Position numbers and translations under genes: made by a program
NCBI RefSeq assembly: GCF_013112485.1
Contig: NZ_JABFHG010000003.1
Span: forward strand, 186,001-250,000
DNA: 64,000 bases
Reading direction: 5' to 3'
DNA from: Roseicella sp. DB1501
Lineage (GTDB): Bacteria > Pseudomonadota > Alphaproteobacteria > Acetobacterales > Acetobacteraceae
Shown: one piece after another, positions 32,883 through 39,821 of the stretch
How the letters are laid out: each line of letters begins with the position of its first letter
Numbering within the stretch: the stretch's first letter is position 1
Notes under the pieces: generated by a model
Seen by the model: only the letters and a program-made list of their open reading frames with translations
What the model was told of the DNA's origin: nothing
Database searches by the model: none

Positions 32883-34325
32883 TCAGCGGCCAGGGCCACC
32901 GCCGCCCGGACCGCCACCAGGGCCGCCTCCTCCTGGACCCGGGCCGAAACCGCCCGGGCCCCGCCCAAAGCCGCCCAGGCCGAAGCCGCCGGGACCGAAG
33001 CTCCTGGGTCCTCTCCCTGGACCGCCCTCGGGCCCTCCTCCTGGGCCGAAGCCGCCGGGACCGGGGCTGCCGGGCCTAGCTTGGTCGGGCATGCCGCCGC
33101 CCCGCCAGGGCGGGAATCCCGATGACGGGCGATCACCGGGGGCTTGGCCTGGGCCGTGACCGGGACCGCCGCCCCGCCCACCGGGGGACATCCCGCTGGC
33201 CGGCGGCGCGGCGCCCGCCGTGCGCAGCGCGGATACCAGCAGCCCGCCATCGCCGCCCCGCACCAGCTCGACCACCGCGCGGCCACCGGCGAAGTTGCCG
33301 AGGCCCGGCGGCATCGCGGCAGCGACCCCGGGCGCGAGTCGCAGCATCCGACCATCCGGCGCGACGAAGCTCTCCAGCACGAAGGCGCGGACCTGCCGGC
33401 CGAAATAGGCCGTCGGGTCCGTCACCAGCGGGTCCGGCACCACGCTCTCGGCGCGCAGGATGCCGTTCTCGTAGCGGCCGGCGACGATCACGCCGCGATC
33501 CGTCTCCGGCAGATCCTGCGGCACGCCGCGGATCTCGAGGCCGCCGATGCGCGCCGCACCGGCCTCGCGCTGCAGCATGCCATGGACCCGCGCCGGGCCT
33601 GGCGCCATGCCGTCGAGCCGGGTCGCCTGGATCGACCCATCGGGCCGCCGCAACCCGCTCACCGCCACCCAGTCGCCGCGGCGCGGCCAGGCCTCCCCGG
33701 CTGCGGACGCGGCTGCCCGGGCCGGCGACAGCACTCGCTGGCCGGCGATCCGCAGCGCGCCATCGGCCTCGGCCGCCTCGACAGGCCCCGTCACCTCGTA
33801 GCGCACCTCGACGCGCCGGGCCTGCAGGGCGCCGCCGCTGCCCGTCGCCTCGACCACCGCAACCTGGCCGGCCCGCAGGGCGGACGGCGTGCTGCGCCGG
33901 CTCTCCACCATCACCGGCACGCTGGGGTCCAGCGCGACCTCCTGGCCAGCGAGGCAGATGCTGGCGAAGCCGGTGATGACGCCGACGATGCCGGTGCCGC
34001 CGATCCCGCGCTCGGCCTGTTGGAAGGTGGGCGCGCCGGTGCCGCCGATCCCACGCTCAGCGAGGACGGGGTCGCCCTCCTTGCGGCGGATGCCCGTGCC
34101 GCCCAGGCCACGCTCGGCCTGACGCATCGCATCCGCCGGGGCGCCGGTGCCGCCGATGCCGCGCTCGCCGAGCACCGGGCCGCCATCCGGCCCAACCTGG
34201 CATCGCGGCCCCGCCGGCCCCGCCGAGGCGTTGCCGGCAGGGGCGGCCACCTCCGGCCGCGGGGCACAGCCGGCCAGCGCCACCAGCAGCGCCAGCGCCT
34301 GCCAGGCGGGGGAGGGGCGCATCAT
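32883..34325 (-). CDS. DUF5666 lipoprotein with GIGGTG repeats (module A)
   Basis: A 480-residue predicted lipoprotein: signal peptide with lipobox LVALAGC at the N-terminus. It then has four [16 protein letters not shown] repeats (about 53-115) and [18 protein letters not shown] leading into a run of DUF5666 beta-barrel-like domains (about 115-360). The last ~110 residues are a Gly/Pro-rich GPGG tail. The ATG overlaps the stop of the DUF6502 gene (ATGA), so the two are coupled. The function is unknown. A surface-exposed or periplasmic role is inferred. A paralogue with the same layout lies at 38274-39821. Confidence 0.82.
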   Translation of the reverse strand: MMRPSPAWQALALLVALAGCAPRPEVAAPAGNASAGPAGPRCQVGPDGGPVLGERGIGGTGAPADAMRQAERGLGGTGIRRKEGDPVLAERGIGGTGAPTFQQAERGIGGTGIVGVITGFASICLAGQEVALDPSVPVMVESRRSTPSALRAGQVAVVEATGSGGALQARRVEVRYEVTGPVEAAEADGALRIAGQRVLSPARAAASAAGEAWPRRGDWVAVSGLRRPDGSIQATRLDGMAPGPARVHGMLQREAGAARIGGLEIRGVPQDLPETDRGVIVAGRYENGILRAESVVPDPLVTDPTAYFGRQVRAFVLESFVAPDGRMLRLAPGVAAAMPPGLGNFAGGRAVVELVRGGDGGLLVSALRTAGAAPPASGMSPGGRGGGPGHGPGQAPGDRPSSGFPPWRGGGMPDQARPGSPGPGGFGPGGGPEGGPGRGPRSFGPGGFGLGGFGRGPGGFGPGPGGGGPGGGPGGGGPGR

Positions 34326-35200
34326 GCCGCGTCGCCCGGCGGCTCGTCCTCGACGTAGAGGTAGACGCCGAGATTGACCCGCCGCCTGGGTCGGTCCCCA
34401 CCGGGATCCGGCGCCTCCTCCCCGACCAGCCCGAGGGCGTGGCGGTTGACCTCGATCAGCACCCGCTCCGCCGCCTCGCGCGCCACGGCCTCGAGCGCCG
34501 CCGCGACTCCTGGGTCGAGCCGGTCGTAATGCACGCTGCGGTCGAGGAAGGGCGGCTTGGCCGCAGCGCCGACATTGGCGGTGGCCGCCGCCAGATGATC
34601 CGCCAGGTTGCGGGCGAAGTAGAAGAGCTGCGCCTCCTGGCCCGGCCGCGGCAGGAAGGCGGTGGCGTCGAGGGTGACGCGGTCATCCTCGCCGAGGCGG
34701 ACGAGACCGAGGCTCAGCCATTCGTCGAGCACGGCGCGCGGCCGCATGTCGCTCGTCGTCGCCTCCACCAGCTCCTCGAAGGAGGGCTCGCCGGGCGTGC
34801 GCAGCCGCGCCAGCGGGCGCGGCGACCCGTCCGGGCCGGCGAAGCCCGGATCGCCCAGCCAGCGGGCGAGGATCTGGCTGCCCAGCGTGACCACGGCCGG
34901 CGCCTCCTCCGGATCGGCGGCGCTGCGGTGCCGGCGCACCTCCTTGCGGTGGATGCCGGTGATCAGGCTGATGCGGCTGTCGGTGCGCGGCGTGGCGCCG
35001 GGGAGGTCGGCGCGGGCGACGTCGAGATAGAGGCCGCGGAGCAGGTCGGCCAGCACGGGAAAGGTGACGCCGCACTGGATCAGGAAACGGACGAGAGGCC
35101 GCAGCATGCGCCGGAGGGGGCCGATGAGCGCCTCCGCGGTCGGGCGTTCGGGTGATGCGGTCAATCCAGGACTTCCGGCCGGCTCCCCACCCCATAGCAT
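34322..35200 (-). CDS. DUF6502 protein, putative DNA-binding (module A)
   Basis: A 292-residue cytoplasmic protein of the DUF6502 family. The N-terminal helical part has LRPLVRFLIQCGVTFPVLADLLRG and then TDSRISLITGIHRKEVRRHR (about 80-100), which looks like a helix-turn-helix with HRKEVRR as recognition helix. A conserved LFYFARNLADHLAAA helix follows. The C-terminus is RVNLGVYLYVE. I chose ATG 35200; no clear ribosome-binding site is seen. A TGTGGG-type dyad lies about 100 bases upstream. Control of the coupled DUF5666 gene is a hypothesis. Confidence 0.82.
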   Translation of the reverse strand: MLWGGEPAGSPGLTASPERPTAEALIGPLRRMLRPLVRFLIQCGVTFPVLADLLRGLYLDVARADLPGATPRTDSRISLITGIHRKEVRRHRSAADPEEAPAVVTLGSQILARWLGDPGFAGPDGSPRPLARLRTPGEPSFEELVEATTSDMRPRAVLDEWLSLGLVRLGEDDRVTLDATAFLPRPGQEAQLFYFARNLADHLAAATANVGAAAKPPFLDRSVHYDRLDPGVAAALEAVAREAAERVLIEVNRHALGLVGEEAPDPGGDRPRRRVNLGVYLYVEDEPPGDAA

Positions 35201-38287: not shown

Positions 38288-39821
38288 GGCGCTGCGCCGG
38301 CATGCCGCGCGGCTCCTCCTGGCGCTGCTGGCCGGCTGCACGCCGCCCGCGCCGCCCGCAGCCCCGCCCGTCGCCGCCTCGGCCACGGGCGGCGTCTGCC
38401 GCACTGGCCCGGATGGCGGTCCGCCGCCCGATACCCTCCCGCCGCGCCTGGCCGAGCGGGGCATCGGCGGCACGGGTATCGGCAGCACGGGTATCGGCAG
38501 CACGGGTATCGGCAGCACGGGCATCGGCAGCACGGGCATCGGCAGCACGGGCATCGGCAGCACGGGTATCGGCAGCACGGGCATCGGCAGCACGGGCATC
38601 GGCAGCACGGGCATCGACGGCGCGGCGGCGGAGGGCGATCGCGGCATCGGCGGCACCGGCGCCCCGCCCATCCGCCAGGCCGATCGCGGCATCGGCGGCA
38701 CCGGTATCGTCGCGGTCATCACCGGTTTCGCCAGCATCTGCCTCGGCGGCCAGGAGGTCGCGCTGGAGGCCGGCCTGCCGGTGCTGCTCGACGGCGTGGC
38801 CGCCGCGCCGGATGCCCTGCGGGCTGGGCAGGTGGCGCTGGTCGAGGCGGCCGGGCCGGGCCGGGCGCTGCGGGCGCAGGGCATCCGCATCCGCCACGAG
38901 GTCTCCGGCCCGGTCGAGGCGGTCGGCACCGACGGGCTGCTGCGGGTGGCCGGGCAGCGCGTCGCCGTCACGCCCTCGACCCTTGGCTTGGCCGCGCCGC
39001 GGCCCGGCGACTGGGTGGCGGTGAGCGGCCTGCCGCGGCCGGATGGGGTGGTGCAGGCGACCCGGCTCGACCCGCGCCGGCCGGGGCCAGTGACGGTGCA
39101 TGGCCGCCTCGCCCGCGACGGCGATGGCTGGCGGGTCGGCGGCCTGGCGGTGCATCCGGCGGGGGCGGCCGGTCCGGTCCTGGCCTCGGTCCCGTTCCCG
39201 TTCCCGGTCTCGGTCTCCGGCCGCTATGCCGGCGGCGCGCTGCGGGCGGCGGCCATCGCCCCCGATCCGCTGGCGACGGACCCGGCGGCGCTCTTCCCGC
39301 CGGGCACCGGCCGGATCCTGTTCGAGGGCTATGCCATCGCCGAGGGTGGCCGCCTGCGCCTCGGGCCGGGCCTGGCGCTGGCCGCGCCGCCCGGCGGGGC
39401 CGCGCTGCTGCCCGGGCGAGGGCCTGAGCGGGTCGTCGTCGCCCTGGAACGTCTAGCGACCGGCGATCTGCGGGCGACGGGGCTGCGGTCCAGCGGGTCC
39501 GAGGTGCGCCCTGGCGAGGCCCAACCGGGCGGGTCCCGCCCAGGTCCGGCCGGCGATGCCCCGATGCGGCCGGGCCCGGACGCGATGAGCCCGGCCCCGA
39601 TGCCGAACCGCAGCCTCGGCCTGGATGGGGCAGGCGGGGTGCGGGGCGGCTGGGATGGCGGCTTCGGTGCCGGCACTGGTTCCTCCCCTGGGTCTTCCCC
39701 TGGGTCAGGCGCCGGGTTGGGCGGGCCTGGCGGCCAGGGTGGGGCGATGGGCGGTGGGGCGATGGGCGGTGGGGCGATGGGCGGTGGGGCGATGGGCGGC
39801 TTCGGCGGTCGCGGGCGCTGA
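38274..39821 (+). CDS. DUF5666 lipoprotein with IGSTG repeats (module B)
   Basis: A 515-residue predicted lipoprotein. GTG 38274 is chosen because GAGGAAGG lies five bases before it and because it yields a signal peptide with lipobox LLAGC; an upstream ATG at 38235 has neither. After RGIGGTG come nine IGSTG units encoded by perfect 15-bp repeats, then two more RGIGGTG units. [18 protein letters not shown] and the DUF5666 domains (about 140-400) follow. The tail is [12 protein letters not shown]. The layout matches the module A paralogue. Confidence 0.82.
38461..38610 (+). repeat. 15-bp tandem repeat coding GIGSTG units
   Basis: Ten consecutive 15-bp units: a variant first unit (38461-38475) and nine units of G(C/T)ATCGGCAGCACGG (38476-38610). 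The only differences among the nine are C/T at the second base, which is silent at the Gly-Ile junction. Such homogeneous repeats change copy number readily by slippage without breaking the frame. Module A has only dispersed GIGGTG units. Confidence 0.9.
39741..39800 (+). repeat. 15-bp tandem repeat coding GGGAM units
   Basis: Four units of GGGGCGATGGGCGGT (the last ends in C) near the 3' end of the DUF5666 gene of module B. They encode repeats of Gly-Gly-Gly-Ala-Met. This is a second in-frame expansion in the same gene. Confidence 0.85.

Follow-up and report, generated by a model that had tools for sequence, protein, structure and literature searches.

The locus described here spans positions 32883 to 39821 of a 64,000-nucleotide stretch of Roseicella sp. 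DB1501 DNA (contig NZ_JABFHG010000003.1, positions 186,001 to 250,000; hereafter the window). Its open reading frames (ORFs) form two DUF6502-DUF5666 gene pairs oriented away from each other, with genes for a small histidine kinase and a disordered protein between them, and four palindromes, absent from an earlier note on this DNA, lie between the copies. Our analysis suggests that DUF6502 is very probably an undescribed family of DNA-binding, autoregulating proteins coupled to exported DUF5666 proteins, the two probably tuning the cell envelope. The genes and candidate operators are given below, G003 being a genome of the same genus as that around the window (5.99 Mb, 98% complete).

32883 to 34325, minus strand: DUF5666 lipoprotein, copy A (480 amino acids; PF18914, E 1.1e-9), with a glycine-rich tail
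34322 to 35200, minus strand: DUF6502, copy A, predicted DNA-binding autoregulator (292 amino acids; PF20112, E 6e-28; model with a predicted local distance difference test score, pLDDT, of 85)
35303 to 35319, no strand assigned: candidate operator O1, GTGGGAAAATGTCCCAT, upstream of DUF6502A; 88% identical in G003, flanks 58 and 67%
35770 to 36141, minus strand: small disordered protein (123 amino acids; no Pfam match), conserved in G003, where the C-terminal tail is similar
36404 to 36420, minus strand: candidate operator O2, GTGGGATCATATCCCAC, in the spacer of a promoter-like TTGATG-17-TATAAT (36397 to 36425), upstream of the disordered protein
36596 to 37300, minus strand: small histidine kinase (234 amino acids; HATPase_c, E 9e-7; weak HisKA_2)
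37331 to 37347, minus strand: candidate operator O3, GTGGGCTAATTTCCCAC, in the spacer of a promoter-like TTGACG-17-TATTTC (37324 to 37352), upstream of the kinase
37360 to 37376, no strand assigned: candidate operator O4, GTGGGTCTTTGTCCCAC, before DUF6502B and 29 bp from O3; 94% identical in G003
37397 to 38287, plus strand: DUF6502, copy B (PF20112, E 2.4e-24); uncertain start codon, the conserved domain beginning near 37481
38274 to 39821, plus strand: DUF5666 lipoprotein, copy B (515 amino acids; PF18914, E 1e-9)

O2 to O4 fit GTGGG-N7-CCCAC, and O1 ends in CCCAT instead. A search of the 64 kb with one mismatch allowed gave nine matches, eight of them being the four module sites, each counted once per strand; in 100 shuffles the largest count was seven. 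All four sites are found at the same places in G003 (O1 to O4, 88, 88, 88, and 94% identity), with the four flanking stretches at 52 to 67%. The equivalents of the promoter-like sequences in that genome are TTGATG-17-TACTAT at the O2 place, where the site is also present, and TTGACG-17-TATCTC at the O3 place. No promoter of DUF6502A was identified.

The palindrome recurs across the DUF6502 family. The 300 bp before DUF6502 were scanned, with 300 bp inside the gene as control, in two sets, one of 80 loci (the best 80 of 545 relatives in a genome-collection scan) and one of 26 loci (the two window copies, seven relatives, and 17 genes from a phylum sample). TGGG-N7-CCCA was present upstream of DUF6502 in 14 of 14 loci from relatives and in 62/80 and 20/26 loci of the two sets, compared to 0/80 and 1/26 inside the gene and shuffle maxima of 3 and 1. 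Upon enumeration of all palindromes with arms of 4 to 5 bases and gaps of 0 to 12, this family ranked first in both sets. The gap between TGGG and CCCA is specific: over 163 loci it was 7 in 86 and 8 in 34, while gaps of 5, 6, 9, and 10 occurred in 0, 1, 1, and 0, with shuffle means of 0.9 to 1.5. At the level of whole genomes, the strict site GTGGGAWWNWWTCCCAC was found in 26 of 299 genomes of the window's family, i.e., 24 of the 52 with DUF6502 and 2 of the 247 without (Fisher test, 7e-19, the genomes not being independent), and its reversed control in none of the 299. Twenty-eight DUF6502-bearing genomes of the family, including that of the window, lack the strict form. The two exceptions carrying the site without DUF6502 are G418, which is 73% complete, and G482, in which one of the contigs with a site stops some 60 bp beyond a second one; a missed DUF6502 gene is plausible in both.

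The operator occurs in two forms, a 17-bp GTGGGA-N5-TCCCAC (subfamily I) and an 18-bp TTGGGA-N6-TCCCAA (subfamily II), the latter with one more spacer base and A/T outside. The 18-bp form is common in loci that we take to be beta- and gammaproteobacterial. Matrices of both forms were applied to 204 genes, 41 of them added, and the calls were read on a tree of 203 proteins. A single branch (support, 100) parts the calls without a violation among 154 called genes: on one side of it the 17-bp form was called at 111 genes and 18 had no call, and on the other the 18-bp form was called at 43 and 31 had none. Among 40 genes added after matrix training, 20 were called (14 and 6) and none fell on the wrong side. 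Twenty genomes in this test have more than one gene and 12 have both subfamilies; in five of them (G339, G760, G895, G907, and G1022) both forms were called, each at a gene of its own subfamily, which argues against the host as the explanation. The operator site, as called by the matrices, follows the protein and not the host, so that the best reading of DUF6502 is a DNA-binding, autoregulatory family not described before. The operator and its tie to DUF6502 are supported by these computations, and direct binding of the palindromes by DUF6502 is very likely.

Natural variation in the protein also touches on specificity. In subfamily I, none of six genes in which the H of HRK is replaced (two YRK, two QRR, one NRK, one NRR) has the operator. 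The two QRR genes (L067 and L086) have instead GTGTG-N7-CACAC palindromes, GTGTGGCAGTTCCACAC and GTGTGTAATTTACACAC, about 100 to 150 bp upstream of DUF6502, which is suggestive only of a possible natural specificity change. A one-residue code in which the H of HRK sets the operator was dropped, since L246 has HRK with an 18-bp site and L078 has HRK without a site; the operator switch, having happened once on the tree, proves no residue code.

The sites also hold fixed positions relative to promoter-like boxes. At the distal site of paired operators, a divergent-strand TTGAC lies at a fixed place in 39/49 loci, compared to 0/49 proximal and 9/37 lone sites, making the operator the presumed 17-bp spacer of a divergent promoter, with a weaker match on its -10 side (TAnnnT in 18/49 distal sites). 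In L158 the site forms the spacer of TTGACG-17-TATAAA. The spacings of paired sites cluster near 28, 38.5, 49, and 59, corresponding to a 10.5-bp period, with a phase R of 0.74 over 50 pairs that are not independent and of 0.47 (p 0.03) over 16 distinct spacings. The promoter position is likewise supported by the computation. We infer that a DUF6502 dimer, often a cooperative pair of dimers on one helix face, binds the palindromes at its own promoter and blocks polymerase. Repression of this promoter would be the most likely outcome because the sites occupy either the -35/-10 spacer or the expected place of the -35, and on balance we consider DUF6502 a likely repressor.

Alternatively, DUF6502 could bind the same sites and activate transcription, for instance from its own promoter, which lacks a good -35. 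The proximal site does lie at the expected -35, and a forward TAnnnT starts 27 to 28 bp from the start of the proximal or lone site in 24/86 loci, a layout that activators use too. However, several sites (O2, O3, and the L158 site) are exact 17-bp promoter-like spacers, where a bound dimer would block polymerase, making activation unlikely. Less probable again is a kinase signaling unit, with the divergent kinase as its core and DUF6502 as its output regulator. The kinase gene is divergent to DUF6502B, with an operator region common to both, and an OmpR-type response regulator is found upstream of DUF6502 in L056 and itself carries a site in L204. Kinase homologues are present in 25/80 loci (21 upstream, 4 elsewhere), but the other 55 show no such kinase, some loci being cut short by contig ends, and DUF6502 has no receiver domain in the Pfam scan of 76 members. 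None of the eight window proteins scanned has a receiver domain either, leaving the kinase without a partner response regulator in the module, and no sensor domain was found in the kinase by the same scan, which used slightly different start codons from those of the listed genes. The kinase also weakly matches HATPase_c_2 (E 1e-5, below cut-off) and the spIIAB anti-sigma F profile (E 0.02), both of the same ATPase fold as the kinase.

Could some other regulator bind the palindromes, with DUF6502 as a cytoplasmic partner of the exported protein doing a different job? By sequence, DUF6502 falls in no recognizable helix-turn-helix (HTH) family, and sites are also found at genes distant from DUF6502. 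Against this, the form of the operator divides along the DUF6502 tree, paralogues within one genome included, genomes lacking DUF6502 almost never carry the strict site, and no further gene common to the loci turned up besides the exported partner (the neighbors not being fully catalogued); we regard such a regulator as very unlikely. That the palindromes are RNA hairpins or terminators instead of protein operators is scarcely credible, for although these inverted repeats are short and close to where transcripts should begin, they keep fixed places relative to promoter-like boxes, the pairs are helically phased, and the gap is subfamily specific.

The DUF6502A structural model, built from 76 sequences, has HTH-like helices at residues 74 to 81 and 85 to 94 over the highly conserved SRISLITGIHRKEVRR, followed by two helices and two short strands at 141 to 177 and then by two long C-terminal helices. 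The invariant glycine of DUF6502 fits a classical HTH turn. Several of the weak Foldseek matches to the model are transcription factors. No good profile match to TetR, MarR, IclR, GntR, or other named HTH families was found among the 76 DUF6502 proteins; lacking an HTH family, PDB, or fold match, DNA binding rests on the genomic evidence and the model.

Several observations weigh against DUF6502 as the regulator of these sites. Among DNA-binding families, the Pfam comparison of the 76 proteins (E <= 1) gave only HTH_29 in two (best E, 0.008), BrkDBD in one (E 0.05), and RHH_3 in one (E 0.31); there was no PDB sequence match, and Foldseek returned nothing at E <= 0.001 with the model. In the matrix scan, 49/203 genes had no called site, 7 of the 12 two-subfamily genomes had no call on one side or both, and L136 shows the 17-bp form by pattern, yet its matrix scores are subthreshold and slightly favor the 18-bp form. 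The operator switch is a single event on the tree, for which an independent-pairs test cannot reach significance, and the H of HRK is not the sole determinant, as L246 and L078 illustrate. In the window's genome, loose sites numbered 25, the four of the module included, versus 22 in the reversed control, i.e., background, and no convincing unlinked site was found there. Several unlinked sites in other genomes have no clear target, among them G008:C98, G477:127553, G512:C2, and the G418 site.

The second half of the module is equally recurrent. The check proposed in the earlier note, that DUF5666 lie directly downstream of DUF6502 in most genomes, is passed: it lies within about 1 kb downstream of 30/33 DUF6502 genes in 28 genomes, a selection free of motif bias; these genomes have two DUF5666 ORFs elsewhere and two just upstream of DUF6502. 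A GIGGTG-type protein is encoded directly downstream in 73/80 and 17/26 loci, the overlap being exactly 4 nucleotides in 71/90, and Pfam recognizes DUF5666 in 70/76 and 57/70 of the downstream proteins read, both selections favoring the motif. Some partners have, by eye, a Tat (twin-arginine translocation)-like signal in place of the lipobox. An OB (oligonucleotide/oligosaccharide-binding)-fold profile, PF01336, matches 3/70 downstream proteins and CcmE matches below threshold, which suggest an OB-like fold for the DUF5666 partner. The pairing of the two families is supported by the computation.

In the window itself, both DUF6502 copies (bit scores 97.8 and 86.1) and both DUF5666 copies (38.8 and 39.0) exceed the curated Pfam gathering cut-off of 27, the DUF6502 matches spanning the entire domain, both family names being without assigned function, and no further match to either was found in the genome (E <= 0.001). 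The arrangement of two diverging units around the kinase and the disordered protein described in the earlier note agrees with these matches and with the coordinates. So does its translational coupling, the DUF6502A stop and DUF5666A start sharing ATGA (a 4-nucleotide overlap) and the copy B genes overlapping by 14 nucleotides. Such coupling would mean that regulator and envelope protein are made together, under feedback. Both DUF5666 proteins have, by eye, an L-A-G-C lipobox as well as the GIGGTG repeats reported earlier: four G[IL]GGTG motifs in copy A, and three GIGGTG in copy B with a tandem GIGST run between them. This tandem run (in 38274 to 39821) is perhaps prone to repeat-number change.

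The two copies share 59% protein identity, whereas between the window's genome and G003 the identity is 88% for A with A and 87% for B with B; judged by these values, the A/B pair is older than the split of the two genomes. The module layout is the same in G003, flanked by hslVU and an aldehyde dehydrogenase gene. The earlier description of an inverted duplication requires this qualification, and a recent duplication, named in that note as part of a refuting case, is rejected by these identities and the retention of both copies in G003. By their ratios of nonsynonymous to synonymous substitution rates between these genomes, DUF6502A (0.23), DUF6502B (0.29), and the kinase (0.27) are under constraint; the values are 0.47 for DUF5666A and 0.44 for the disordered protein (56% identity). 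The repeated unit with its kinase is real at this locus, but doubling is no general feature, a single DUF6502 match being found in 46/52 DUF6502-bearing genomes of the family, nor is the kinase, with homologues in the minority of loci given above. One genome, G1014 (84% complete; L249 and L290 to L294), has eight DUF6502 matches, of which six were tested and one has a called operator. The earlier idea of a cytoplasmic regulator paired with a surface lipoprotein gains support, with a likely operator added to it.

Sites away from DUF6502 point to a candidate regulon. Of the 36 sites from the strict search of the family, 20 belong to DUF6502 modules, being at or within them, and 16 are located elsewhere. 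Putative targets include RgpF-like glycan genes in three genera (G010, G557, and G007, below the Pfam cut-off in the last), a DUF374 acyltransferase and a DUF192 exported protein (both in G438 and G568, with a gene like the latter in G493 by eye), an animal-haem-peroxidase-like protein (G008), and, by eye, exported or disordered proteins (G024) and small membrane proteins (G420 and G482). Because some sites in the family precede genes for glycans, acyltransferases, and exported proteins, the module probably adjusts the envelope of the cell or its surface matrix; a surface regulon of DUF6502 is, in our estimate, somewhat favored. In the window's genome, the regulon seems not to reach beyond the module, which comprises the two units together with the divergent kinase and the disordered protein. 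Full palindromes C12 and C17 elsewhere in this genome were set aside for lack of a good promoter match, as was an adhesin-like gene beside G008:C98 as target, the site lying downstream of the gene. A ChpT-like gene of G003 (L163) has a site without a promoter match. The proteins beside the operator in G420 and G482 (L201 to L203) are 73 to 82 amino acids long with a C-terminal hydrophobic stretch, and the two scanned have no Pfam match.

Genes upstream of DUF6502 itself include, apart from the response regulator of L056, a family-2 glycosyltransferase (L065), a group-1 glycosyltransferase (L106), and MucR/Ros (PF05443) in Mesorhizobium L108 and L109, where the sites have one mismatch. MucR/Ros proteins regulate exopolysaccharide and belong to a protein family unrelated to DUF6502. 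Some 2 kb away from the module with its DUF5666 lipoproteins, the window has lspA (30420 to 30968), which encodes signal peptidase II, an enzyme that processes lipoproteins. At 41803 to 42488, an AbrB/MazE-like ORF is followed by one with a Doc/Fic-like HPFVDGNKRT motif, possibly a toxin-antitoxin pair.

The module resembles two known kinds of system. TetR/MarR-type autoregulatory repressors similarly have a palindromic operator in the -35/-10 spacer, autoregulation, and a divergent target; DUF6502 differs in that no homology to them was found and in its coupling to an exported protein. Extracytoplasmic function (ECF) sigma/anti-sigma surface signaling likewise involves a cytoplasmic regulator encoded with an envelope protein; the DUF6502 module differs in its palindromic operator, and no sigma-70 or anti-sigma domain was found in it above the Pfam cut-off. 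RskA_N weakly matches one of the 76 DUF6502 members (E 0.11). In an open-access subset of the literature, we found no mention of DUF6502, of TGGGANNNNNTCCCA, or of four exact operator strings; among the matches listed for the GTGGGA/TCCCAC palindrome no title concerned such a bacterial operator, GIGGTG occurred in one paper, by its title on antifungal peptides, and DUF5666 is named in four papers, figuring in passages of two of them as a gene-table entry.

We infer that a signal acts on the module and that the exported protein and the kinase have roles in it. Feedback from the exported DUF5666 protein onto DUF6502 is a tentative proposal. Similarly speculative is its extension to a widespread form of envelope control in Proteobacteria, in which the exported, OB-like DUF5666 protein might set the output of the regulator, with export or surface state feeding back on a regulon that the palindrome defines and that takes in genes for glycans, acyltransferases, exported proteins, and kinases.

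Overall, these data make two families without an assigned function directly testable, with a likely operator defined to the base in two subfamilies, promoter-like sites, and candidate targets. With DUF6502 present in 52/299 genomes of the window's family, 15/299 of a phylum sample, 76/274 of one class, and 34/194 of one order, assigning a function would give many genes an annotation in one step and might tie the exported DUF5666 family to surface control.

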